Assembly (NCBI GenBank): GCA_017435665.1
Contig: JAFSEP010000030.1
Span: forward strand, 1-50,419
Direction: 5' to 3'
DNA length: 50,419 nt
DNA from: Clostridia bacterium
Lineage (GTDB): Bacteria; Bacillota; Clostridia; Oscillospirales; Acutalibacteraceae
Below are positions 18,143-38,679 of the stretch, one piece after another; position 1 is the stretch's first letter; every line of letters begins with the position of its first letter. The position numbers were made by a program, and so were the translations under genes. A model generated the notes under the pieces. It saw only the letters and a list, made by a program, of their open reading frames with translations, did not search any database and was not told the origin of the DNA.

Positions 18143-18841
18143 TTATTTCAGCCTTTCGTTAATTATTTCCGCCACCTGCGGATAAAGCTCCCTGATGAAG
18201 AAATGATTATCCCCCATCATTATAAACTCTGCCTTATGCGAAAATCGGTTCTGCCATTTCAGCGCACTTTCGGTAGGCACATCCTTATGGGAATAGAGCA
18301 TTGTGACGGGTATATCCACGGTGCTTTCATCCTTGAGGGTATAGCTTCCGATAAGATTGTAGTCAGCTCTTATGGGATTAAAAATCATATTTCTGAAAAA
18401 TCGGTTTGTGAGCATTCTGTCATCGATTTTCTCAAAGCCGCCGAAGCTCATCAGCATATCTGCAAACTCTCTGTCGCCGAGCTTACAGTATTCCATGCTC
18501 TCCCAATGCTCACCCGGTGCTTCGTGGGATGCGATAAAAAGATGTATGGGCGTTTTAATCAGGAGTTTTCTTCTCAGAAGCTCAAAGGCTACCACGCTTC
18601 CCATACTGTAACCGAAAAGAGCGATTTCAGCATTCTCATCAAGCTGTCCGTTTATAATTGAGGCTACGTCATCTGTCATTTCATCAAAGCTCTGATAAAA
18701 CTCTGATTTCGCCCTTGTTCCGTGACCTGAATACTCAACGGAAACAAGTCGGATATCATCTCTGAGGCAATCCCTGAGACTGTCAAACATATCTGCCTTC
18801 CCCCCTGCGTAGGGGATGCAGAAAAGCTGTATTTTTTTCAT
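18143..18841 (-). CDS. Type II thioesterase (alpha/beta hydrolase)
   Basis: A 232-residue alpha/beta hydrolase of the GrsT/SrfD type. Such enzymes remove misloaded or stalled acyl groups from carrier-protein thioesters. It starts IQLFCIPYAGGKADMF, the typical oxyanion region, has the nucleophile elbow GYSMG (S79), an Asp in the SHKDVPTE segment and the catalytic His in GDNHFF. The start overlaps the previous gene as ATGA, so they are translationally coupled. Its place in an operon with an adenylating ligase and a carrier protein suggests an editing or releasing role on that carrier. Canonical dlt operons lack such an enzyme. Confidence 0.88.
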   Translation of the reverse strand: MKKIQLFCIPYAGGKADMFDSLRDCLRDDIRLVSVEYSGHGTRAKSEFYQSFDEMTDDVASIINGQLDENAEIALFGYSMGSVVAFELLRRKLLIKTPIHLFIASHEAPGEHWESMEYCKLGDREFADMLMSFGGFEKIDDRMLTNRFFRNMIFNPIRADYNLIGSYTLKDESTVDIPVTMLYSHKDVPTESALKWQNRFSHKAEFIMMGDNHFFIRELYPQVAEIINERLK

Positions 18842-19848
18842 TGCTTATCCACACTTTCTGCCGATAAAGGCGGATTGATTATTTTATCAATCATAATTGC
18901 AAAGGGCTTCAGCGATGTTACAAGCAATATGAGAACTGCCGCAACGGGAATTACGTAAACATAGTTCACTCCGAAAAGCCCGATAAGTAAGCTGTCCATT
19001 CCAAAGCCCCTGAGGAGAGTTATTACGCTTGTATGAAGGGCGTAAATGGGCAATGTTCTGCCTCCGATTGTGCTGATGAAGGTCTTTGCCTTGGGCATAA
19101 GAGCGATAAGAGCAAACACAAAAGCAAAGGCAACGATATAGTGACCTAATCTGAACAGACCACCGAAATCGTCATAATCAGGGAGCTTGTTATAGGGATA
19201 TTTACCCTTGAAGATTTTAATAAGCCAATCGATTTTATGAAAATTCAAATAGGTGAGAACTGCAACCGTAACAACAAAAACAGCGGATACAGCTTTTACC
19301 CAGATTCTGTCAGTCTTTTCAATTATTTTTTCTCCTTCAAGGCAATAGCCTGCAAAGAAGAAGGGATAAAAGGTAAATATTCTGGCAAGCGAAAGATATG
19401 TGTCAACGGATTTATCATAGCCCACCATAACACCGAGGATGACAGCAAGGACGAACACGTAGGTCCTGTTGAATCTTCGGAGATAAACAGTAACCAGAGC
19501 AAACATAAAAATTGCAAAGGCATACCAGGCAATACTGTCTTCGTTGAAGTATTCAATCTTCAGCCTTCTTCCCACAATGCAGTTTGCAATAAATTTAAAC
19601 AGCTTGGTGGCAAAGCCGAGGATAAGATAAGAAAACATCCTGTCATATTTTTTATTGTTCACGGTGTTTTTCATAAACAGACCGGACACAAACATAAAGG
19701 CAGGCATATGAAAAATATAAATAAAGAAATTCAGCCAACCCAGCACCATAGATTCATCTGTGTAAAAATCCACAGTATGACCCATTACTACTGTCAGCAT
19801 CAGCAGAAATTTCAGATTGTCCCATTTAGCAATTCGTGTGTTACTCAT
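18838..19848 (-). CDS. Acyltransferase-3 family membrane protein (OafA/NolL-like)
   Basis: Integral membrane O-acyltransferase of 336 residues with about 10 TM helices. The N-terminus IAKWDNLKFLLMLTVVMGHTVDFY carries the conserved His (H24). The segment FHMPAFMFVSGLFMK is the second family signature. Such proteins acetylate or acylate sugars on surface polysaccharides or peptidoglycan. It lies 85 bp after the DltD-like gene, with a hairpin in the gap, and overlaps the thioesterase start by 4 bp. This is a second membrane acyltransferase in the operon beside the MBOAT protein. The donor and target are unknown. Confidence 0.85.
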   Translation of the reverse strand: MSNTRIAKWDNLKFLLMLTVVMGHTVDFYTDESMVLGWLNFFIYIFHMPAFMFVSGLFMKNTVNNKKYDRMFSYLILGFATKLFKFIANCIVGRRLKIEYFNEDSIAWYAFAIFMFALVTVYLRRFNRTYVFVLAVILGVMVGYDKSVDTYLSLARIFTFYPFFFAGYCLEGEKIIEKTDRIWVKAVSAVFVVTVAVLTYLNFHKIDWLIKIFKGKYPYNKLPDYDDFGGLFRLGHYIVAFAFVFALIALMPKAKTFISTIGGRTLPIYALHTSVITLLRGFGMDSLLIGLFGVNYVYVIPVAAVLILLVTSLKPFAIMIDKIINPPLSAESVDKQ

Positions 19849-19933
19849 ATTAACTCCGTTTTCGCTTATTAATCCGAAACGCCCGAAAGCATTCAGAATG
19901 TGCTTTCAGGCGAATTCAGTCTGTGTTATTTTA

Positions 19934-21427
19934 TCAGCCCATACCCATATCGGCATAAGCTAACTTACCGCCGTCATTATAGATTGTGCATTTTGCAATA
20001 ATCTTACCCGTGTAAACACTGCGGACAAGAATGTTCATACCGTTAATCTCAAAGGGTCGGTCAACATTCTTGACCTTCATATATGCATCGTCTTCCGTTT
20101 CGTTGATGTTACTTACGGTTTCAAATGCATCGTTACCCTTAAACATTCCCGAATAATAAATCGGTTCGGCAGAGGCTTTTTCATATACGCATTTGCCCTT
20201 GCTCATAACTATCACATAGTTCTTGCCTGACATCTTAGATATATCAAGCTTGATGCCTGCGTCAGCAAAGGCCTTCTGGTATTCTGCCGGCCAGAGCTTT
20301 GAAATATCATCAGTTGACTGTATAACAATTTCAAATTCTTCGTCATCAAGATATGTGAGGAATTCATCAATACTGATACAGCTTCTGAGCATTTTTTCAA
20401 CACGGTCTATCTTATACAGCTCGGACTTTTCAAGCGAGAAGCCCTCAACCTCACGGTAATCTGTATATTCAACACCCGTTTCCATTATATAGTCCATAAG
20501 ATAGGTTGTGAACTTTGTTGCGCCTCTTACGTTGAGATGGTCCTTATCCTTGAAGTCACCGTAATAATCAAGGCCGAGGGTTCTGAAGCCTTCATCGTCC
20601 GAAAAGTCAAGGAAGGGATAGTTATTTTCCTTTGCATACTTCTCAACGAAAATTGAGCCTTCCTTTGCCCATGATTCCTTGGGAGTCTTTACAAGAATAA
20701 CGTTTATTCCCCTCTCCTCACACAAAGTGAGAATTCTCTCAAAATAATCAAACTGAAGTGTATTCAGCTCAACCTCGGGATCGTCCTCAGGGTCATTGTC
20801 GATAACAAAGGTTTCATAGGGAATTGTCGGCTGCCATACGTAGCCCGTCATACGTGTGCCTCTGAAGAAATTGAACTCACTTGTCCAATACTTGAAATCC
20901 ATTTCAGTAAGCTCATCCCATCTTGAGTGATAACGCAGGAAGTCGAAAAGGTATAATTCCATACCGTCCTCTGCAATACCGTCGTTACAGTGAGCCCAGA
21001 TTGCCTTGAGCTTGTTTATTGACCAGTTCATACTGTTAAGTGCACGGCGGTATCTTGTTTCACCCTCAGGCTCAAAAAGCATACTTGTGTCCATTACAAC
21101 TGTCTTAACCTTTGACTGTGTCTTGAAGGCATCAAGAAGCCAGTAGTACTGAATAAGAGGACACATATTACCGCTTGAGATACTGTAAGACGAAATACCG
21201 TAGTCCTCATAAACCTGATAGGGATTGATACCGTAGGTCATCTGGCTGCTTCCGAGAAACAGCATTTCAAGTGTATCCTCTTGTATAAGATTGTTGAATT
21301 CATCAACAACAAGGTCTTCGCTGTTTGCCTCAGCCCACTTGGCTCTCATTACCGATGATACCGTTGTGAACAGAACGGCAAAAATCAGCAAAAACGCTAT
21401 GGTTTTAATAACTTGTTTCTTTGTCAT
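19934..21427 (-). CDS. DltD-like SGNH-fold membrane-anchored protein
   Basis: A 497-residue protein with an N-terminal uncleaved TM anchor (about residues 8-27) and an extracytoplasmic SGNH/DHHW-like domain. Key points are MLFLGSSQMTYGINP with the nucleophile Ser in GSSQ (59-62), the block MDTSMLFEPEG, and the catalytic Asp-His pair in KDHLNVRGATKF. About 120 C-terminal residues after the SGNH core form a separate mixed alpha/beta region not seen in ordinary DltD. In dlt systems DltD completes transfer of the acyl group to the surface polymer. It follows the MBOAT gene by 21 bp. Confidence 0.8.
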   Translation of the reverse strand: MTKKQVIKTIAFLLIFAVLFTTVSSVMRAKWAEANSEDLVVDEFNNLIQEDTLEMLFLGSSQMTYGINPYQVYEDYGISSYSISSGNMCPLIQYYWLLDAFKTQSKVKTVVMDTSMLFEPEGETRYRRALNSMNWSINKLKAIWAHCNDGIAEDGMELYLFDFLRYHSRWDELTEMDFKYWTSEFNFFRGTRMTGYVWQPTIPYETFVIDNDPEDDPEVELNTLQFDYFERILTLCEERGINVILVKTPKESWAKEGSIFVEKYAKENNYPFLDFSDDEGFRTLGLDYYGDFKDKDHLNVRGATKFTTYLMDYIMETGVEYTDYREVEGFSLEKSELYKIDRVEKMLRSCISIDEFLTYLDDEEFEIVIQSTDDISKLWPAEYQKAFADAGIKLDISKMSGKNYVIVMSKGKCVYEKASAEPIYYSGMFKGNDAFETVSNINETEDDAYMKVKNVDRPFEINGMNILVRSVYTGKIIAKCTIYNDGGKLAYADMGMG

Positions 21428-21448
21428 AATCTGTTTTCCTTTCTGACC

Positions 21449-23041
21449 TTAGTATGCCATATAAACGAAGGCAGCAAGGTCAAAGCCCGGACCGTATACA
21501 CCGTAAATCAGAACCGCAAAAATAAGAGCAAGATAGAGAACCCAGCGTGTTACAAGGTTTTCCTGCTTGAGCATTTCTCTGACCGAGCCCTTCATCTGAA
21601 GGTGTGAAACATAGCCGAAAATCGCTATTGCTATAACGGCAATCACAAGCTCAGGTGTTGTCAGTCCGTACTGACTGATTTCCGATGAGAAAAGCTCCCA
21701 GGGTCTGAAGTTCTTTAACGTATAATAAACAATAGCTGCACTCTTATGAAGTGTTCCCGGACGGGTAAGAAGTCTGCCGCCTGCAAAAATAACGGTTGTT
21801 CTTGCCATCTGGAAAAGTCTCCACGAGTTAGTTGTTGTATTTATCTTGAGCTTCTGAGTAAGCTTCTTCATATCATCCTCAAAGGTTACTGAGAGGAAGA
21901 TCATTGTTGCATAGTAAACGCCCCATGCGATATAGGTCAGACCTGTGCCGTGCCAGACGCCCGTAAGCACCCATGTTACCGAAACGGGAATTACCGTTAC
22001 AAGAGCCTTTGCAATTTTCGGTGAAACCTTACCTCTTGTTGACTTGCTGATATTCTTGACAAGTCTTGAGGTTGAAATGGGATAATAAACATAATCCTTG
22101 AACCAGCCGCCCAGAGTCATATGCCATCTGCGCCAGAACTCTGTTACGGAGCGTGATGAGAACGGATGGTCAAAGTTAAGGTCAAGCTCAATTCCGAAAA
22201 TCTGTGACATACCTCTTGCCATATCCATACAGCCTGAGAAGTCAGCGTAAATATAAATTACGTCGAGGAACATTGACAGAATGAGAATAAGGCTGTTTGC
22301 ATTCCAGTAGTCGCCGTATGCTGCATCGATGAACTGGGTTATTCTGTCGGCAATAACCAGCTTCTTGAAATAACCCCAGAGCATAAGCTGTATGCCCGAA
22401 ACTACACGGTCATAATCAAATCTCAGCTCCTGCTTGAGCCTTACGCCCAGCTTACCGTATCTTTCAATGGGACCCTGAAGAATATGGGGGAAATAGATAA
22501 GGTAAAGCAAGAATCTGAAATAGTTCTTTTCATAGCCCACTCTCTTCCAATAAACATCAAGGAGATAGCTCAGAGATGAGAAGGTATAATAAGAAATACC
22601 GAGAGGTACTATGATACTTGCTGCGCTGAAGCTGTCTTCCTTACCGCCCATAAACGCAATAAGATCGTTAATGGGGTTTTCAAAGAACTTTGTGAACTTA
22701 ACAACGCAGAGTATTGCTATATTGAGCACCAGCACCCCTGCTATAACCTTCTTACACTTTGATTTATACTTCTCTTTAAGTGCCTTCTTGTCGTCCCTTG
22801 TCAGTTCCTTGTTTTCAAGCTCAAGATTCTGCTTATCGTAATAAGCACCCATCTTTTTACCTGCAAGCCAGACAGAAAGACTTGTGACAAAAATAAAGGG
22901 AAGATACTCAAGTCCCGCAATTGCATAGAACACTGTGCTTATTCCGAGAAGTGCTATCCAACGGTATTTGACCGGGCAGATATAAAACACTATGATACCG
23001 CACAGTAAAAATATCAAAAATTCCAAATCTATAAAAGTCAT
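21449..23041 (-). CDS. MBOAT-family O-acyltransferase (DltB/AlgI-like)
   Basis: Polytopic membrane O-acyltransferase of 530 residues that moves an acyl group from a carrier protein across or at the membrane. It has about 11 TM helices, the MBOAT segments YFPHILQGPIERYG, the FWRRWHMTLGGWFKDYVYYP block (302-321) and the catalytic His in LTGVWHGTGLTYIAWG (H364). The start at 23041 (MTFIDLEF) has GGAGG 5 nt upstream. The neighbours, a carrier protein gene on one side and a DltD-like gene on the other, match the dltB position. An AlgI-like role in acetylation is possible, but a linked carrier protein favours thioester-derived acyl transfer. Confidence 0.9.
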   Translation of the reverse strand: MTFIDLEFLIFLLCGIIVFYICPVKYRWIALLGISTVFYAIAGLEYLPFIFVTSLSVWLAGKKMGAYYDKQNLELENKELTRDDKKALKEKYKSKCKKVIAGVLVLNIAILCVVKFTKFFENPINDLIAFMGGKEDSFSAASIIVPLGISYYTFSSLSYLLDVYWKRVGYEKNYFRFLLYLIYFPHILQGPIERYGKLGVRLKQELRFDYDRVVSGIQLMLWGYFKKLVIADRITQFIDAAYGDYWNANSLILILSMFLDVIYIYADFSGCMDMARGMSQIFGIELDLNFDHPFSSRSVTEFWRRWHMTLGGWFKDYVYYPISTSRLVKNISKSTRGKVSPKIAKALVTVIPVSVTWVLTGVWHGTGLTYIAWGVYYATMIFLSVTFEDDMKKLTQKLKINTTTNSWRLFQMARTTVIFAGGRLLTRPGTLHKSAAIVYYTLKNFRPWELFSSEISQYGLTTPELVIAVIAIAIFGYVSHLQMKGSVREMLKQENLVTRWVLYLALIFAVLIYGVYGPGFDLAAFVYMAY

Positions 23042-23059
23042 CGGATCCTCCAAAAATCA

Positions 23060-23092
23060 AACGGTGTGATTTTTTTAGAAAATTACACCGTT
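23060..23092 (-). promoter_or_regulatory. Intergenic hairpin between the carrier protein and MBOAT genes
   Basis: Arms AACGGTGTGATTTT and AAAATTACACCGTT (one mismatch) fold into a stable stem in the 63-bp gap. The following sequence is only moderately T-rich, so it may cause partial termination or protect the carrier-protein mRNA. That would give more carrier than membrane enzyme. Confidence 0.45.
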
Positions 23093-23104
23093 CAAATTAA
23101 CTCA

Positions 23105-23326
23105 TTACATTATTTCCTGAATCATATCCCACATTGCCTCAACTGAGTCGAAGTTCTGAGGTACAATATACTCCATATCAATTTCGATATCGAATGTATC
23201 TTCAATCTCTGCAAGGATTGAGGTCATATCGATAGAGTCAATTACCTTACCTGTGATAAGAGACTTCTCGTTTTCGTAATCGATATCGGGATTTACTCTC
23301 TTTAATGCTTCAATAAGTTTGTCCAT
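23105..23326 (-). CDS. Acyl carrier protein (DltC-like)
   Basis: A 73-residue acidic carrier protein, MDKLIEALKRVNPDIDYENE at its start. The phosphopantetheine site is in VIDSIDMTSIL, where the Ser of DSID carries the cofactor. The helix-II pattern and length fit DltC and stand-alone ACPs. The start at 23326 has CGGAGGAAACTAAA upstream; a longer in-frame reading from 23407 overlaps the ligase and lacks support. It lies between the adenylating ligase and the MBOAT gene, and so probably receives the activated acyl group from the first and donates to the second. It needs a phosphopantetheinyl transferase, such as the one at 34347. Confidence 0.9.
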   Translation of the reverse strand: MDKLIEALKRVNPDIDYENEKSLITGKVIDSIDMTSILAEIEDTFDIEIDMEYIVPQNFDSVEAMWDMIQEIM

Positions 23327-23354
23327 TTTAGTTTCCTCCGTTTTATATAATTGA

Positions 23355-24776
23355 TTATTTATTGATAAGCTGAGGAAGGTCCTTATAAAGCACCTTGCCT
23401 GACTCATTTCTGGGTATGCTGTCGATTGCCGTTACGGCTATTGCTCTTGAATTGATGTGAGTTCTTGTTACGATAAGCTCCTCAATTTCCTTTTCAAGAG
23501 ATTTATCCGTGATATAAACAATCATAAGCTCGTCCGTTCCCGTACTTGCCACGTCTATATCCTCATACTCTCTTTTAACAATACGGTCAATCTCATCAAG
23601 ATTTATTCTGTTACCGAAGAGCTTGAGGAATCTCTTCTTTCTTCCAACGATGAAGAAATATCCGTCCTCATCTCTCTTAGCCATATCGCCTGTTTCAAGT
23701 CTGCCGTTTCTCTCGTCACCCTTTGCCAGGTCCTCGCCGCATTCAGCATAGCCGAGAGTTACGTTTTCGCCCTCATAAACAAGCTCACCCACAATCTCGG
23801 GTTCGGTAATTTCGTTTCCGTCAGCGTCAATAAGAAGAAGCTTTCCGCCGGGGATTGCAATACCCATACTGCCGTATTTTTCAATCGCCTTATCGGCGGG
23901 AAGGTACGCCATTCTTGCCGTTGCCTCGGTCTGACCGTACATAACGATGAACTTCATACCCTTGCTTTCGGCAAACTCAGCAAACTCCTTATGAAGCTCT
24001 GCTGAGAGCTTACCGCCTGCCTGAGTGAAATATTTAAGTGAAGGAATATCCATTCTGAAGAAACGGATTCTCTTGAGCATTTCATAGGTATAGGGTACAC
24101 CGCCGAAGGATGTTGCATTTTCAGCCTTCATAAAGTCCCAGAAGCCCTTTGCGATAACCGTATCCGTTGTGAGAAGGACTGTTGCGCCTACCGCTACGTG
24201 GCTGTTTATAATTGAAAGACCGTAGGTATAGTTCATAGGTAATGTTGTAATCGGTCTTTCGTTTTCGTCAATTTCAAGATATTCAACAATCGCCTTTGCG
24301 TTTGAGCAGACGTTTGCATAGCTCTGTCTTACGAGCTTGGGGCTTCCTGTTGAGCCTGAGGTTGCAAGAAGCAAGCCGAGGTCATCGCTGAGCGCATAGG
24401 TTATATCAAAGTTTGTCTTGAGAAGAACGTAGTCCCAGCCCTCATATACCTTCTCGTAATCTGAAAATTTTTCAGCCATATCCTCAGGGACATAGAGGTA
24501 TGCAGGTTTATAGATATCAGTAAGACTGCCCAGAAGCACCGGGTCAATGTTTGCATCGAGCATAAGCGGTACGCTTCTGTTATGAAGGAAGCTGAGATAA
24601 CCGCACATTGAGCCTATAACGTTTCTGCAAAGTGAGAACACAAGACTCCTCTTGGGCATAATGCCGTCAAGCCTTTCGGCTGTCTGTGCAATCTGCGCAT
24701 AGGTGATTTTTCTGCCTGTATTTTCTATTGCGGCAACTCTGTCACCAAAGTTTAATATAGTGTCGTAATATTTCAT
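23355..24776 (-). CDS. AMP-dependent ligase of a dlt-like operon (DltA-like)
   Basis: ANL-superfamily adenylating enzyme of 473 residues that activates a carboxylic or amino acid with ATP and loads it on a carrier protein. Core motifs are ATSGSTGSPK (138-147), YGQTEAT (280-286), the ETGDMAKRDEDGYF block, GRKKRFLKLFGNRI and the C-terminal Lys in NESGKVLYKDL (K461). It is slightly shorter than DltA (about 500 residues), and I cannot confirm D-alanine specificity from the sequence. The start at 24776 (MKYYDTIL) has GGGAGA 7 nt upstream; the earlier ATG has no site. It is first in the operon, with a 28-bp gap to the carrier gene. Confidence 0.85.
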   Translation of the reverse strand: MKYYDTILNFGDRVAAIENTGRKITYAQIAQTAERLDGIMPKRSLVFSLCRNVIGSMCGYLSFLHNRSVPLMLDANIDPVLLGSLTDIYKPAYLYVPEDMAEKFSDYEKVYEGWDYVLLKTNFDITYALSDDLGLLLATSGSTGSPKLVRQSYANVCSNAKAIVEYLEIDENERPITTLPMNYTYGLSIINSHVAVGATVLLTTDTVIAKGFWDFMKAENATSFGGVPYTYEMLKRIRFFRMDIPSLKYFTQAGGKLSAELHKEFAEFAESKGMKFIVMYGQTEATARMAYLPADKAIEKYGSMGIAIPGGKLLLIDADGNEITEPEIVGELVYEGENVTLGYAECGEDLAKGDERNGRLETGDMAKRDEDGYFFIVGRKKRFLKLFGNRINLDEIDRIVKREYEDIDVASTGTDELMIVYITDKSLEKEIEELIVTRTHINSRAIAVTAIDSIPRNESGKVLYKDLPQLINK

Positions 24777-24814
24777 ACAAAACTCTCCCATTTTGTGTAT
24801 CTACAATCGCAAAT

Positions 24815-33080: not shown

Positions 33081-34178
33081 TCAATCTGCCTGAACGTTTC
33101 TGAATTCTGACTGCTCAAAGCCGAGGGAAGCAGCTATAAGGCGGGGTACCATATAGTTATTTACAGCTTCGCCGTTATCGATGAAGTTTGATGAGCCGTA
33201 AACAAGAAGGGGTACATCAGTTGCCGAATGGTTGCCTCTTGTATACTTATACTCTCCGTTTCTGTAAACGATTTTGCCCGTTTCGTGGTCAGCAGTTACA
33301 ACAACGAGGGTATTTCCGTCCTTCTTTGCAAAATCAAGAGCCTTTTCAATAGCTCTGTCAAATTCCTGAACGGCAATCATCATATTCTTTTCGTCGTTTG
33401 AGTGTGAGTGCTTGTCAATGTGAGCTCCCTCGACCATAAGGAAGAAGCCTTCATCGTTATCAAGGATTTCGATTGCCTTTTCCGTCATTTCGGAAAGAGT
33501 GGGATCATCTGTTCCCGTTTCGGTCCTCCAGAGCGAGCTGTTAAATGCTGCGAAGCTCTTTGAGCCGTTTCTGAGAGCATCCATTTCAGCCTCTGAATCG
33601 ATAACTGTAAATCCGTTTGCTTCAGCAGTTGCCGCATTGAAATCCTCATCAGTGTTACCCCAGATGATATCAATGTCGGAAGCCATCTGCTGAGCGATGA
33701 TCTTATCGTTATTACCTCTGTCATTTGTATGGGCTGAAAATGCTGAAGGAGTTGCGCCTGTTGTAAGGTCTGTTGTAATAACGCCGGTTCTCATTCCGTG
33801 GCTTTCACAGATTTCCGTGATGTTCGTGGGTGTGGAATAGGTCTGAAGAGGGTCGGCAAAATATACGCCCACATAGTTGTTGCCTGTGCGGATACCTGAT
33901 GAAAGAGCAGTACCGCCTGCAGCGCTGTCTGTGATGGGGCTGTTTGCTGACTTGGTCTTTGAATAACCTCTCAGGGGCATATCGTCCATTACAAGGTCAA
34001 TACCCAGCTCATCCTTTGTCCATTCAAGGTGGTTTTCACCCATACCGTCACCGATGAGAAGGATAACATTTTCGACCTGATCTCTGCCGTCAGTATCATA
34101 GGGAAGAAGCTGTGTACACGAAAGTATACCGCTGATAAGCATTGAAACTGCGGCTAAAATTGAAGTAAGCTTAAACAT
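33081..34178 (-). CDS. Alkaline phosphatase, lipoprotein
   Basis: Secreted, lipid-anchored phosphomonoesterase of 365 residues. The signal peptide has lipobox LISGILSC-like residues with Cys21. The catalytic domain has the metal site in NVILLIGDGMGENH (about 37-50), the nucleophile Ser in ITDSAAGGTALSSG (S85), the EGAHIDKHSH metal ligands and the late ADHETG motif. The length is short for the family (E. coli PhoA is about 450), but all core motifs are present. It has its own promoter (34209-34237), divergent from the phosphopantetheinyl transferase gene. No Pho box could be confirmed by eye. Confidence 0.92.
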   Translation of the reverse strand: MFKLTSILAAVSMLISGILSCTQLLPYDTDGRDQVENVILLIGDGMGENHLEWTKDELGIDLVMDDMPLRGYSKTKSANSPITDSAAGGTALSSGIRTGNNYVGVYFADPLQTYSTPTNITEICESHGMRTGVITTDLTTGATPSAFSAHTNDRGNNDKIIAQQMASDIDIIWGNTDEDFNAATAEANGFTVIDSEAEMDALRNGSKSFAAFNSSLWRTETGTDDPTLSEMTEKAIEILDNDEGFFLMVEGAHIDKHSHSNDEKNMMIAVQEFDRAIEKALDFAKKDGNTLVVVTADHETGKIVYRNGEYKYTRGNHSATDVPLLVYGSSNFIDNGEAVNNYMVPRLIAASLGFEQSEFRNVQAD

Positions 34179-34346: not shown

Positions 34347-34931
34347 ATGAAAATATATAAATACAGACTGTCCGATTTTTCCGATGAGGCTTACAGCTAT
34401 TGGTACGGGCTTCTGCACACGGAAAAGAAGCTACGTGTTGACGGATACAGAAGCGCAGATGACAAGCGCCGCAGTGTATGCGCCCATATGCTTGCCGTAA
34501 GGGGTATCAGTGAGCACACCGGACTCAGCTTTGATGAAGTCAGGCTGGCCGAGGACGAAAACGGTAAGCCCTTCTGCAAAAACGCCAACGCTTTTTTCAG
34601 CATCAGTCATGCGGATGATATGGTGGTCTGTGCCGTCAGCAATGAGCCTGTCGGTATTGACGTTGAAAAGCCGAGAAGCATAAAGCTGTCTGTCACACGG
34701 AGGGTCTGCACCCCGATGGAGCTTGAATACGTTTTCGGCTACTCCCCTGCTGAAGATGATTTCAAAAAAGCTGCCGATGAAGCTCAAAGCAGAAGATTTT
34801 TTGAAATATGGGTAAAAAAAGAAGCCTTCGGCAAAAGGGAAGGCACGGGCATTGCTTATAATATGAAGGAAACCGAGCTTATGCATATCCCCTGCTTTTA
34901 TGAGGACGGATATGTTTTTGCGGTCTGCTGA
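34347..34931 (+). CDS. 4'-phosphopantetheinyl transferase (Sfp type)
   Basis: Enzyme of 194 residues that moves 4'-phosphopantetheine from CoA to the Ser of carrier proteins, turning apo into holo form. It has ENGKPFC, the SISHADD segment, the Mg-binding GIDVEK motif and the WVKKEAFGKREGTG motif in place of the common WxxKEAxxK. The start at 34347 has AAGGAGAACGGAT upstream; an ATG nine codons before lies near the transcription start. It faces the carrier-protein operon at 35073 across a hairpin cluster. Probable substrates are that carrier and the DltC-like carrier at 23105. Confidence 0.9.
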   Translation: MKIYKYRLSDFSDEAYSYWYGLLHTEKKLRVDGYRSADDKRRSVCAHMLAVRGISEHTGLSFDEVRLAEDENGKPFCKNANAFFSISHADDMVVCAVSNEPVGIDVEKPRSIKLSVTRRVCTPMELEYVFGYSPAEDDFKKAADEAQSRRFFEIWVKKEAFGKREGTGIAYNMKETELMHIPCFYEDGYVFAVC

Positions 34932-34935
34932 CAAG

Positions 34936-35020
34936 GCCGCCCACAGTCGTGGGCGGCGTGCGGCGAAGCCGCACGGGTCAGCGAAGCTGACAAAAGGCGG
35001 CGTGTCCCACGCCGCCTTTT
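34936..35020. terminator. Cluster of perfect hairpins with a bidirectional terminator
   Basis: Consecutive palindromes follow the transferase stop: GCCGCCCAC-AGTC-GTGGGCGGC (34936-34957), GTGCGGC-GAA-GCCGCAC (34958-34974) and GTCAGC-GAA-GCTGAC (34977-34991). AAAAGGCGGCGTG-TCC-CACGCCGCCTTTT (34992-35020) comes last and has A/T flanks suiting termination in both directions. Confidence 0.75.
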
Positions 35021-35036
35021 CACATCACACCGAAAA

Positions 35037-35066
35037 GCTCCCGCACATTTTACAATGTGCGGGAGC
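35037..35066 (-). terminator. Terminator of the condensation/ligase/carrier operon
   Basis: A perfect 13-bp stem GCTCCCGCACATT/AATGTGCGGGAGC with loop TTAC, 6 bp after the carrier-protein stop, followed by TTTTC on the minus strand. Confidence 0.8.
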
Positions 35067-35072
35067 ATATTA

Positions 35073-35306
35073 TTAGTCTTCATCTTTGTATTCTTCGATA
35101 ATTGCAATAACATCTGCAACTGTTTCGATGCCTACAACTGCACGGTCGGGAATTTCAAGCTCAAATTCCTCCTCGATTGCAACTGCAAGATTTACAAGTG
35201 AAAGTGAATCAAGTGCAAGGTCACGTCTGATGTTTGTTTCCTCTGTAATTTCTTCAGGAGAAATATTAGCATAATCACAAATGATTTCTCTTAATTTTTC
35301 CAACAT
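35073..35306 (-). CDS. Stand-alone acyl carrier protein
   Basis: A 77-residue acidic carrier protein. It has MLEKLREIICDYANISPEEI at the start, the phosphopantetheine Ser in LALDSLSLVNLAVAIEEEF and the helix III region VGIETVADVIAIIEEY. It resembles fatty-acid or NRPS-type ACPs more than DltC. It is the last gene of a three-gene operon, 25 bp after an acyl-adenylating enzyme. Probably that enzyme loads an acyl group on it and the condensation-domain protein uses the thioester. It is unlikely to be the housekeeping AcpP because no fatty-acid genes are nearby. Confidence 0.92.
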   Translation of the reverse strand: MLEKLREIICDYANISPEEITEETNIRRDLALDSLSLVNLAVAIEEEFELEIPDRAVVGIETVADVIAIIEEYKDED

Positions 35307-35331
35307 ATTGTATTACCTCTTTTTTATGATT

Positions 35332-37137
35332 TTATACTGTTACTGCGTTCTTTTCATTATATGCAGCTACGACGTCTGCCCTTCTGACCTTTCTTGTTGA
35401 GGTCTTGGGGAATTCTTCGTAAACCACCATAACGTCCTGAATCTTCTTATATGACGACATCAGTCTGTTGACCTTTGTAACATCATCGTTAACCATCTTT
35501 TCAATTTCTGCCCTTGTCTTTCCGGGTAAATCGGTTTCATCAACGTAAATTGCAACCGCAATAATTTTTACATCCTTATCACGTACATTCTTGACTGCTT
35601 CAAAAGCAACAACCTCACGGATATACTTGATACCCTCCATTACGTTGCTCTCAATATCCTCGGGGAAGACATTCTTACCGTTATCAAGAATAATGAGGTT
35701 TTTCTTTCTGCCCACAATAAACAGTTCATTCTTTTCGTTAGTACGTCCGTAATCACCGGTCTTGAACCAACCGTCTTCAAAGGATGCTGCAGTAGCTTCC
35801 TCATCCTTGTAGTAGCCCTTGGTTACATTGTCACCCTTGAGCCATACCTCGCCGATACCGTCTGCATCAGGATCGTGGATAATAAACTTAGCCTTCGGGA
35901 ACACAATACCTGATGATTCGGGGTTTGTACCTGCCTGCAGGTTCAGAGTAACCGTGGGTGATGATTCCGTAAGACCGTAGCCCTGATAAACCGTAAATCC
36001 AAGCTCATAAAGACCTGTAACATGTTCAAGTCTTGCCGGTGCACCGCCGCTTACAAGCGTGGGGAAATTGTCACCGAACTTCTTTCTGACAGTACCGAAA
36101 AGCTCGTGTCTTTTATCAATACCGTGCTTGAGAAGGAAGTTACTGAACTTAATAAGCTTTCTGAGAATACCTGCTTTTCCCGATTCCTCTGCAGCCTTCC
36201 AGATACCCGTATAAATGCCCTCAAGAATAAGAGGTACTGATGCGAATGCATCCGGCTTGAAGCGCTGAATGTTGGGAAGAATATTACGAAGGCTGTCGTT
36301 GATATAGAGAACAGCGTTCATATAAAGAGAGGTGAGAATATTACAGCTGAGCTCATATGCGTGGTTCATGGGAAGAACCGAGAATGATGAATTCTCCTGA
36401 GCAATGGTTGCTATTATACCTTCAACATTTGATGCAAAATTATAGTGAGAAAGCATAACGCCCTTGTTTGCACCTGTTGTACCTGAGGTGAAAAGAATAG
36501 CTGCCATCTGATCTCTGTCTGTAATCTTGTTTTCAACGTAGCTTCTGTCACCGTCAGCAATAAGCTTCTTACCTGTTTCGATAATATCCTTGAGCATATA
36601 GAAGCCTTCGGCATCTCTTTCCTTGCCGTTCATCATAAAGCAATGCTTTACTCTGTCGTCCTTTTCCATATGCATCTTTGCTGCCTTATAGTAGGTCTTG
36701 CTGCAGATAATTGCCTCGCAGTCAGCCTTTGAGATAAGCTGGCTGAGCTCGAAGTCTGTAAGCTCCTTATCAAGAGGAACTGCAACACCCACACCGCCTA
36801 CTACTGCAAGGAAGGAAATTATCCAATTATATGAGCCTTCGCCCACAATGGCAATATGCTTGCCGTTGAGTCCCATATGGTTAAGAGCAGTGCCAAGAGC
36901 ATAGATATCGTTTACAAGACGTCTTGCTGAATACTCAAGTGTATTTTCCTTGTTCTTTTCATCAATTTCAACAACCGAGATTCTGTCGCCGTAAACCTTG
37001 AGAACTCTGTCCACAAGCTCCTTGAGATCTTCGATTTCGCCGGGAGCGATTATCTCTTTTCTCAAAGCCCAAAGCTCATAGTCAACCTTTCTTGCGTTAT
37101 CAACGTTTCTTGTCTTTACTTTCTGTGCCATTTTCAT
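35332..37137 (-). CDS. Long-chain acyl-CoA/acyl-ACP synthetase-like adenylating enzyme
   Basis: ANL-superfamily enzyme of 601 residues, close in layout to FadD/AasS fatty-acid ligases. It has the P-loop TSGTTGANKG (217-226), the YGLTESS motif (387-393), the FKTGDYGRTNEKNELFIVGRKK hinge region and the C-terminal Lys in TSTRKVRRAD. The length fits long-chain acyl ligases rather than amino-acid adenylation domains (about 500). With a carrier gene beside it, it may load the carrier directly instead of CoA. GGAGG lies 4 nt before the first ATG and 10 nt before a second one (MAQKVK), so the start is uncertain by two codons. Confidence 0.88.
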   Translation of the reverse strand: MKMAQKVKTRNVDNARKVDYELWALRKEIIAPGEIEDLKELVDRVLKVYGDRISVVEIDEKNKENTLEYSARRLVNDIYALGTALNHMGLNGKHIAIVGEGSYNWIISFLAVVGGVGVAVPLDKELTDFELSQLISKADCEAIICSKTYYKAAKMHMEKDDRVKHCFMMNGKERDAEGFYMLKDIIETGKKLIADGDRSYVENKITDRDQMAAILFTSGTTGANKGVMLSHYNFASNVEGIIATIAQENSSFSVLPMNHAYELSCNILTSLYMNAVLYINDSLRNILPNIQRFKPDAFASVPLILEGIYTGIWKAAEESGKAGILRKLIKFSNFLLKHGIDKRHELFGTVRKKFGDNFPTLVSGGAPARLEHVTGLYELGFTVYQGYGLTESSPTVTLNLQAGTNPESSGIVFPKAKFIIHDPDADGIGEVWLKGDNVTKGYYKDEEATAASFEDGWFKTGDYGRTNEKNELFIVGRKKNLIILDNGKNVFPEDIESNVMEGIKYIREVVAFEAVKNVRDKDVKIIAVAIYVDETDLPGKTRAEIEKMVNDDVTKVNRLMSSYKKIQDVMVVYEEFPKTSTRKVRRADVVAAYNEKNAVTV

Positions 37138-37155
37138 ATATCCTCCGAAAAAATA

Positions 37156-38559
37156 TCAATCTGTAAAATCGTCTAAGTTATCAAGAATTTCGCCGACTGT
37201 AATTTCAGGATTATCCATACCCATTCTGAGTGTCTTCATTGCGTTTTCGTGAAGAAGGTCGATGGTTTCGGTCGAAATAAGATTTGTTCTGTGCATATAA
37301 CGGAATTCTGTGCCGCCGTTCTTCGGGTCGGGAATTGCAAAGATATAAAGAGGCATAACAAATCTGCCTGTTTCATATGCAGTGTAGTCCACGTCAAAGC
37401 TTGATTCGTTAAGTGCATAGCCGATAGGAAGCCACGAGAACATAAGGCAAGAGGGACCCTGTGAGGTTGAGTAACCGAAGATCTGCTGCTGCATACCCCT
37501 TGCTTCAAGATAGGGATAATCCATATGACGAAGAAGTGAGGTTCTGCAGCTTGAAACCTTAGCAACCGCTTCATTGAAGGTATCGGTCTCTTCAGTAATA
37601 ACTCTTATCTGGATAGGCTGTGTAATGCAGCCGCCCATAAACTTGTCCTGCTTCTTTGCACGACGTCCGCACATAAGCATATTAAGAACATCCGGTGTTC
37701 TGTAATTAACCTTTGATGCGTGAGCCCTCAATGCATAGAGAAGAACACATTCCGGAGTGATAAGATGCTCCTTACAGTAATCATAAACAGCATTTGTCTC
37801 TGCTTCAGACATATACTTTGTGGTAACAACAATCTTATCGTGAATGGGATCGAATGCCTTGGGAACTCTGATTGAGGGATCCTTTCTTCTGGCTTTTTCA
37901 AGAAGATCGGGACCGTGTACACCGGCGTAGAAGGGTTCGCCGTTTTCTGTCCAATAGTTTTTGTAAAACTCAGCATCCTTATTGTGACGCTTTTCGTTTC
38001 CGAGATATTCGAACTCCCTCTTGATGTGGTCCTCGTATTTATACAAAGGCTCGGGCAGCTCTGTTCCGTTGAGCAACGCTCTGTAAACAGCAAGGAGATC
38101 CATATAGAATACCGCTGCACCGAGTGCATCTGTTACGATATGGCTGACGTTAAAGTAAATACCGTACTTTTCACCGGTCTTATAAAATATGAGTCTGTAT
38201 GTCTCATCCTTGAAAATTCTGATGGGAGTTTTTGCATCCTTGAGGAAAAATCTGTCCTGCTCTTCTTTTGATTTAAACTCCTTAACAGGAATTTCGTCAA
38301 CGGTATACGGGTCAATAAAATACTGCTTTATCTTACCGTCAACCTTTGTAAAACGCAGACGGAGAGCATCATTTCTTTCAATTTCAATATTGAAAGCCTT
38401 TTTCAGCAGATCAAAATCAATTTTTGCATTAATTCCGATTGATGCCGGAATCTGTGTTACTTCCTTATGGAGACTGTATTTCAGCATTATGTACATAGTC
38501 TGCTGAGACGGTATGAGGTCATAAAGCGGTTTATCTGTTACGGGAGCTTTCTTTGCCAT
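37156..38559 (-). CDS. Stand-alone condensation-domain protein (NRPS/WES-like)
   Basis: Protein of 467 residues made of one condensation domain of the chloramphenicol-acetyltransferase-like fold, which joins an acyl thioester to an amine or alcohol. The N-terminal LIPSQQTMYIMLKYSL corresponds to core C1. The catalytic HHxxxDG motif reads SHIVTDA (139-145), keeping the second, catalytic His (H140) and the Asp but not the first His or the Gly. Later segments such as DVLNMLMCGRR match the C-terminal half of the fold. The start at 38559 has AAGGAGG 8 nt upstream; the ORF could read 37 codons further with no such site. It is first in its operon. Wax-ester/PapA-type transferases are the main alternative. 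Confidence 0.82.
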   Translation of the reverse strand: MAKKAPVTDKPLYDLIPSQQTMYIMLKYSLHKEVTQIPASIGINAKIDFDLLKKAFNIEIERNDALRLRFTKVDGKIKQYFIDPYTVDEIPVKEFKSKEEQDRFFLKDAKTPIRIFKDETYRLIFYKTGEKYGIYFNVSHIVTDALGAAVFYMDLLAVYRALLNGTELPEPLYKYEDHIKREFEYLGNEKRHNKDAEFYKNYWTENGEPFYAGVHGPDLLEKARRKDPSIRVPKAFDPIHDKIVVTTKYMSEAETNAVYDYCKEHLITPECVLLYALRAHASKVNYRTPDVLNMLMCGRRAKKQDKFMGGCITQPIQIRVITEETDTFNEAVAKVSSCRTSLLRHMDYPYLEARGMQQQIFGYSTSQGPSCLMFSWLPIGYALNESSFDVDYTAYETGRFVMPLYIFAIPDPKNGGTEFRYMHRTNLISTETIDLLHENAMKTLRMGMDNPEITVGEILDNLDDFTD

Positions 38560-38650: not shown

Positions 38651-38679
38651 ATGATACCATTATAATGCAATTATGTCAA
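38651..38679 (-). promoter_or_regulatory. Promoter of the condensation/ligase/carrier operon
   Basis: Minus-strand TTGACA (38674-38679), 17 bp and TATCAT (38651-38656), about 70 nt before the mutS2 stop in map terms and about 85 nt before the condensation gene start. It makes the operon independent of mutS2. Confidence 0.75.

Follow-up and report, generated by a model that had tools for sequence, protein, structure and literature searches.

The window, a stretch of 50,419 nucleotides, is contig C15 of the 2.23 Mb assembly (98.9% complete) of an uncultured gut Clostridium. It contains an operon for a stand-alone condensation (C) protein, an acyl-adenylating enzyme (A) and an acyl carrier protein (ACP; T where gene order is given), with a 4'-phosphopantetheinyl transferase (PPTase) encoded convergently. 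Judged from its sequence, the operon is probably a dissociated system of the Oaa type for conjugating fatty-acyl groups, similar in its parts to a non-ribosomal peptide synthetase (NRPS). The best reading of the analysis is that a scavenged fatty acid would be converted, by way of acyl-ACP, to an N-acyl amide. The gene set is real and well conserved. It is of a known kind, the Oaa-type, and its C protein falls in a sister clade whose distribution is distinctive.

All four genes lie where an earlier note on this DNA had placed them, as Pfam and the translations confirm. The C protein (467 amino acids (aa), 37156-38559, minus strand) matches PF00668 (Condensation) at 5.6e-33 and is stand-alone, with the motif SHIVTDA and its catalytic His. 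Separated from it by 18 nt is the gene for the 601-aa adenylating enzyme (35332-37137, minus strand), a probable acyl-ACP ligase with matches to PF00501 (AMP-binding; 9.1e-52) and PF23562 (6.8e-07). The 77-aa ACP (35073-35306, minus strand; PF00550, PP-binding, 1.3e-15) follows after 25 nt and has a DSL attachment motif. The Sfp-type PPTase (194 aa, 34347-34931, plus strand) matches PF22624 (AASDHPPT_N) at 1.0e-11 and PF01648 (ACPS) at 6.3e-10. The translation of the ligase contains the ANL core SGTTG, YGLTES and the C-terminal Lys, and that of the PPTase the stretches GIDVE and WVKKEAF; these, like the DSL of the ACP, are motifs of the respective families. The ligase reaches no NCBIfam cut-off among the 25 families listed of 98, the best score being 194 bits where 476 is required. 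On that basis an ordinary FadD of beta-oxidation, a grouping of which the earlier note had been wary, was rejected.

Evidence for function comes from homology to OaaC of Coprococcus eutactus, which is PDB entry 12KH (PMC13142362; Singh, Grant and Gulick, preprint April 2026). The window C protein matches OaaC over its full length (6.5e-44; window residues 8-457, 12KH residues 6-463). An 18-row C profile matches 12KH at 1.2e-69, with the next PDB match at 2.7e-16. Building on Chang et al. 2021, which it cites, the preprint describes OaaC as a free-standing C domain that works with OaaA and OaaACP; the in vitro products of the three are fatty acid amides, oleoyl aminovaleric acid among them (PMC13142362). 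As in the window, the Oaa system of a gut Clostridia member encodes a separate adenylating enzyme, ACP and C protein together, and the two C proteins both keep the His and Asp of the motif. The view of the earlier note that no described pathway has exactly these separate parts fails, because Oaa has the same parts and OaaC is a full-length homologue of the window C protein. The window operon differs from Oaa in its C-A-T order and in its spread across a genus without a match to beta-ketoacyl-ACP synthase (KAS) and mostly without a match to PlsY.

The FAA-type motif is (D/H)HxxxDS, in which the second His and the Asp are nearly invariant and the last position is Ala in 36% (PMC13142362). All 35 rows of the clade of the window protein (clade II, below) retain the catalytic His and the Asp, which does not place this protein among the inactive C families lacking the His that the earlier note had in mind. 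The preprint also reports that OaaC has a 17-residue insertion with a helix (214-224) that is absent from the canonical C domain, and that the OaaC homodimer hides the carrier site (PMC13142362). The window C protein aligns to OaaC across the insertion stretch with a 2-residue gap. Three NRPS C domains, which are not the comparator of that preprint, were aligned over the same stretch: two cover the helix and then have a 12-column gap, and the gap of the third lies earlier.

In the proposed mechanism, the PPTase would prime the 77-aa carrier with phosphopantetheine, as the sole PPTase detected. To judge from its family and its pairing with the carrier, the 601-aa enzyme would use ATP to convert a fatty acid to acyl-AMP and then to acyl-ACP. 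The fatty acid would be supplied from outside the cell, because the genome is without a detectable KAS. By homology to OaaC, the His of the C protein would help a free small acceptor to attack the acyl-ACP thioester, freeing the acyl conjugate. A release thioesterase would be unneeded, as a free acceptor requires none. The product is most likely an N-acyl amide, which is ranked first because the only characterised relative found makes amides.

A maximum-likelihood tree was built from 67 proteins, namely 64 stand-alone C proteins and three NRPS domains. The former are 50 proteins of the family set, 10 of the 20 genus loci, the three C proteins of the host genome and OaaC; the 80 loci of the contig scan described below were left out. 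The two clades, I and II, were named from a quick tree before the careful tree of the same rows was made. Clade I (29 rows, support 96/94) contains OaaC, a paralogue from contig C7 of the host genome and 27 further rows, of which 15 are from KAS-positive genomes (the tree has no others of this kind) and 12 from KAS-negative genomes. The C7 paralogue matches 12KH at 4.2e-71 and is a closer relative of OaaC than the window C protein is. Clade II (35 rows, support 100/99) contains the window C protein and a second paralogue, from contig C56; its rows come exclusively from KAS-negative genomes, several of which are represented twice. The branches that separate the two clades are long, and the tree program cautions about them. 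The FAA set of the preprint has 127 sequences (PMC13142362). What is new is a sister branch of the OaaC clade, met here only in bacteria that seem unable to make fatty acids.

The clustering of the three genes is a feature of the relatives as well. These were collected by an alignment-based scan of genome contigs, in which 80 of 110 confirmed relatives were kept, and their neighbouring genes were placed by tblastn and gene calling; a contig scan with the window protein alone as the query gave zero relatives. The carrier and the ligase both lie within 2.5 kb of the C gene on the same strand in 50 of the 80 loci, and the carrier does so in 64. Among the 63 C genes with at least 2.5 kb of flank on both sides, both partners are present for 42 and the carrier for 55. 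The family set gives ligase and carrier near C in 40/50; the counts are not independent, because the contig-scan and family sets share genomes. The grouping of C, A and carrier is far beyond chance, and the co-occurrence of the three genes that the earlier note proposed to check is strong. It is also more than shared synteny, because gene order differs between groups (C-A-T, A-C-T and C-T-A). As for the PPTase, G023, whose C protein is nearest to that of the window, has not retained the convergent arrangement: its PPTase and C genes are ~39 kb apart on one contig. The PPTase does, however, lie within 5.5 kb of C on the same strand in 6/80 contig-scan loci and 2/50 of the family set. In two family relatives (L232 and L233), a stand-alone carrier and ligase adjoin NRPS genes. 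The record titles of the relatives carry names such as Oscillospiraceae, Ruminococcaceae, Clostridiaceae, Ruminococcus or simply Clostridia, and nearly all the records are metagenome-assembled genomes. The relatives are largely of herbivore-gut origin: an animal is named in 41 of the 80 titles, in every case a herbivore (goat, sheep, deer, cattle, buffalo, yak, horse).

A C gene and carrier without a nearby ligase were found at 14/80 loci (12 of the type CT, two CTP). At 11 of the 12 CT loci a gene of an alpha/beta-hydrolase cluster lies ~0.5 kb or less downstream of the carrier on the same strand. The loci with such genes, one or two each, are L087, L088, L089, L091, L092, L097, L106, L107, L111, L116 and L158. 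The cluster member from L149, the sole one scanned against Pfam, is lipase-like, with a GHSLG motif and a signal-like N-terminus. A downstream hydrolase fits the release and use of outside lipid; the association amounts to few events, because most CT loci share other neighbours as well. Near C in four loci there is a cluster of GH3-type adenylating enzymes (L124:4298-5977, L113:4245-5945, L116:10816-12528 and L097:1779-3518). The member from L124, the only one scanned, matches PF03321 at 1.9e-76 and is a possible alternative acyl activator.

The C fold serves amide and ester bonds alike. PapA5, WS/DGAT and SgcC5 are stand-alone enzymes of this fold that make O-acyl products. An ester in place of an amide, such as a wax-like or sugar ester, would be in keeping with this versatility, and with a subgroup of two loci (L039:6859-11069 and L041:8809-12816; their contigs are the same as those of L125 and L156) in which the C gene comes just after an MBOAT acyltransferase gene and a gene for a protein of 388-447 aa. 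However, the nearest characterised relative forms amides, and the operon shows nothing that points to an alcohol. The earlier note had proposed an enzyme set for an acyl amide or an ester; the amide stands as the best guess and the ester is quite unlikely.

In the host genome PF00668 is matched by three proteins, on contigs C15, C7 and C56, all of them stand-alone C proteins, and the genome contains no NRPS. An origin of the window C protein as an NRPS fragment was rejected on this ground. The C7 trio (L005:8561-11823) consists of an A protein of 517 aa, a C protein of 514 aa and an ACP of 73 aa, and the C56 trio (L006:9074-12249) of 518, 461 and 77 aa, respectively. Near the C56 trio lies a gene for a 441-aa protein that is GDSL-lipase-like and has a signal-like N-terminus (L006:7575-8900; PF13472 7.8e-06, below the Pfam cut-off). 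Four carriers were detected in the genome, the three trio carriers and a weaker match in a Dlt-like operon of the window, and each adjoins an acyl-ligase.

The window PPTase is the sole PF01648 match in the genome and presumably serves every carrier for that reason. The earlier note had called it the operon's own. It is indeed Sfp-type and convergent, but this description is too narrow, and a private PPTase was rejected. Across the genus, PF01648 is present in 32/34 genomes and is single copy in all but one of those. From the carrier and PPTase content, the use of phosphopantetheine in the host seems to be restricted to acyl-ligase systems. No separate fatty-acid-synthase carrier was found among the carriers detected in the genome. 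This, together with the presence of all four carriers in ligase operons, argues for a role of A and the carrier in feeding acyl-ACP mainly to other acyltransferases of a fatty-acid auxotroph, with the C protein on a side branch or regulating the pool. Ligases paired with PF01553 proteins in the relatives L207 and L211 point the same way. Against such a role, the C proteins retain their catalytic residues and C is found with a carrier at the loci that lack a nearby ligase, and it is considered very unlikely. Long PF01553 acyltransferases (~400-450 aa) were seen beside an ACP in L204:6963-8306 and beside an acyl-ligase in L207:6167-9057 and L211:4673-7578; they and the host's own copy (L201, below) are candidate phospholipid acyltransferases.

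Several observations weigh against an Oaa-type synthesis of amides by the window operon. The window C protein lies in the sister clade of the OaaC clade and not within it. Its motif, SHIVTDA, has Ser first and Ala last, unlike (D/H)HxxxDS and unlike the DHRLMDS of OaaC. The first motif residue in clade I is D in 13 rows, H in 10, Q in five and N in one; in clade II it is S in 18, C in six, H in six, T in three and I in two. A fatty-acid substrate is assumed for the window ligase, and no amine-making gene was seen in the operon. Neither ligase nor carrier is near seven of the 63 well-flanked C genes. Finally, all 34 genomes of the genus have a C match, 33 of them at 43% identity or more, which is more constant than expected for an optional signalling metabolite; the remaining genome, G033, has only the C7-like kind.

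A search for KAS (as PF02801) gave no match in the 34 genus genomes and was positive in 10/14 controls; FabH was not searched. PlsY, the first acyltransferase of Firmicute phospholipid synthesis (PMC12594616), was found in 4/34 genus genomes and in 8/14 controls. It has no match in the host genome; PlsX and Fak were not searched. The literature matches listed contain nothing on this bacterial group without fatty acid synthesis or without PlsY. In a family sample of 300 genomes from 135 genera, KAS was matched in 108, PlsY in 237 and the C profile in 58. As 192 of the 300 have no KAS match, much of the family may be without fatty acid synthesis. The 58 comprise 24 genomes with strong clade II hits (E < 1e-160, a cut set after a gap from 7e-162 to 4.5e-89 was seen), 23 with full-length mid hits and 11 with short or NRPS-like pieces, which were not counted as stand-alone.

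None of the 24 strong genomes is KAS-positive against 108/276 others (Fisher 2e-5), and 5/24 are PlsY-positive against 232/276 (Fisher 2e-10), or against 128/168 within KAS-negative genomes (Fisher 2e-7); these tests treat related genomes as independent, and kinship inflates their significance. Counted by genus, KAS is present in 0/13 genera with strong hits and in 51/122 others (0.002), and PlsY is absent from 7/13 and 13/122, respectively (5e-4). The mid hits differ, with 15/23 KAS-positive and 18/23 PlsY-positive. The genomes of L257 and L258 have clade II proteins below the strong cut and are PlsY-positive and KAS-negative; adding both gives 7/26 for PlsY and 0/26 for KAS.

This distribution bears on a further explanation, a role of the clade II trios in making or remodelling membrane lipid. 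The C protein would transfer the acyl group from ACP to glycerol phosphate, to a lysophospholipid or to the head of an amino-lipid, and would take the place of PlsY, wholly or in part, in bacteria unable to make fatty acids. The scarcity of PlsY in the genus, in the host and with strong clade II hits, by genome and by genus, argues for it. So does the contrast within the genera g14, g15 and g87, in which PlsY is present in the sampled members that lack a C hit and missing from some or all of those that have one. G033 (81% complete), the sole genus genome without a clade II-like hit, is PlsY-positive. In addition, the only PF01553 (PlsC-like) match of the host genome, a 397-aa protein (L201:7611-8804), is above the Pfam cut-off and far below that of the PlsC-type NCBIfam model (25 against 103 bits). 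On the other side, besides the kinship that affects the tests, g18, g43 and g63 show no contrast, their members without a clade II hit being also without PlsY. In 37 genomes there is no KAS, no PlsY and no full-length C hit, so bacteria can cope with the loss of PlsY by means other than the trio. PlsY and the trio coexist in three genomes of the genus (G021, G023 and G025) and four of the family (G040, G076, G176 and G194), and the L257 and L258 genomes also have PlsY. PF01553 is found in 32/34 genus genomes, which means that acyltransferases of the usual type are not missing, and Oaa, the known relative, makes amides (PMC13142362). A role in membrane lipid is judged unlikely. It is kept because clade II behaves as a core gene of bacteria that lack KAS and, for the most part, PlsY, which is not what one would predict for an optional signalling metabolite.

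Besides Oaa, three known systems share features with the window operon. VibE, VibB and VibH of vibriobactin synthesis are a stand-alone A protein, carrier and C protein, with a free amine as the acceptor. VibE activates an aryl acid, whereas the window ligase looks to be of the fatty-acyl type. The sequence match of the window C protein to PDB 1l5a ('amide synthase'), which is VibH, is weak (4e-6) and far below the match to OaaC. NRPS lipo-initiation employs an acyl ligase, an ACP and a starter C domain; an acyl-ACP donor to a C domain is common to both, but the host genome has no NRPS. The acyl-ACP synthetase AasS feeds fatty acid or phospholipid synthesis. It loads outside fatty acid directly on ACP, as described for Vibrio, and the same is proposed for the window operon. 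Unlike the AasS routes, the window operon links a C protein and a private ACP.

Upstream of C, a promoter-like site (TTGACA-17-TATCAT, the second hexamer being preceded by TG; 38651-38679, minus strand) matches the consensus at 11/12 positions, although the number of such sites in the region, 16 against 9.5 expected in shuffles, is not clearly above chance. By eye, AAGGAGG directly precedes the ATG of the C gene at 38559, so the longer TTG frame (to 38670) is unneeded. A 13-pair hairpin at 35037-35066, between the convergent ACP and PPTase genes, is a possible two-way terminator; three terminator-like sites were found against 3.4 expected, and the argument for this one is its position.

Divergent from the PPTase is a gene for an alkaline-phosphatase-family protein (365 aa, 33081-34178, minus strand; PF00245 1.6e-52). 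Further off, the Dlt-like operon (18143-24791, minus strand) encodes an AMP-ligase of 478 aa, an ACP of 73 aa (23105-23326), an MBOAT protein of 534 aa, a 497-aa protein with a weak DUF1574 match, an acyltransferase-3 of 336 aa and a type II thioesterase of 232 aa. Its MBOAT protein scores 155.6 bits with LTA_dltB against a cut-off of 375. The thioesterase at 18143, to which the earlier note had drawn attention, does exist (PF00975 4.3e-27), though as a member of this operon and not of the trio. Since the operon has its own ligase, ACP and MBOAT protein, the thioesterase was rejected as a missing release enzyme. The trio itself was rejected as a Dlt (D-alanylation) operon, there being no MBOAT or DltD-like partner beside it.

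The fatty acid amides of gut Clostridia act on host receptors (PMC13142362), and the sister branch is for this reason a possible source of new acyl conjugates. It is rather unlikely, on present sequences, that clade II represents a line of condensation-domain acyltransferases taken over for membrane-lipid synthesis after the loss of fatty acid synthesis and, mostly, of PlsY. If this were true, outside fatty acids would be handled by private carriers and dedicated ligases, and a stand-alone C protein would acylate a lipid precursor. The paralogous trios of a cell would divide acyl positions or head groups among them, and the single Sfp-type PPTase would have a housekeeping role in building the membrane. 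The finding makes testable how membranes are built in bacteria without a detectable KAS and mostly without PlsY.

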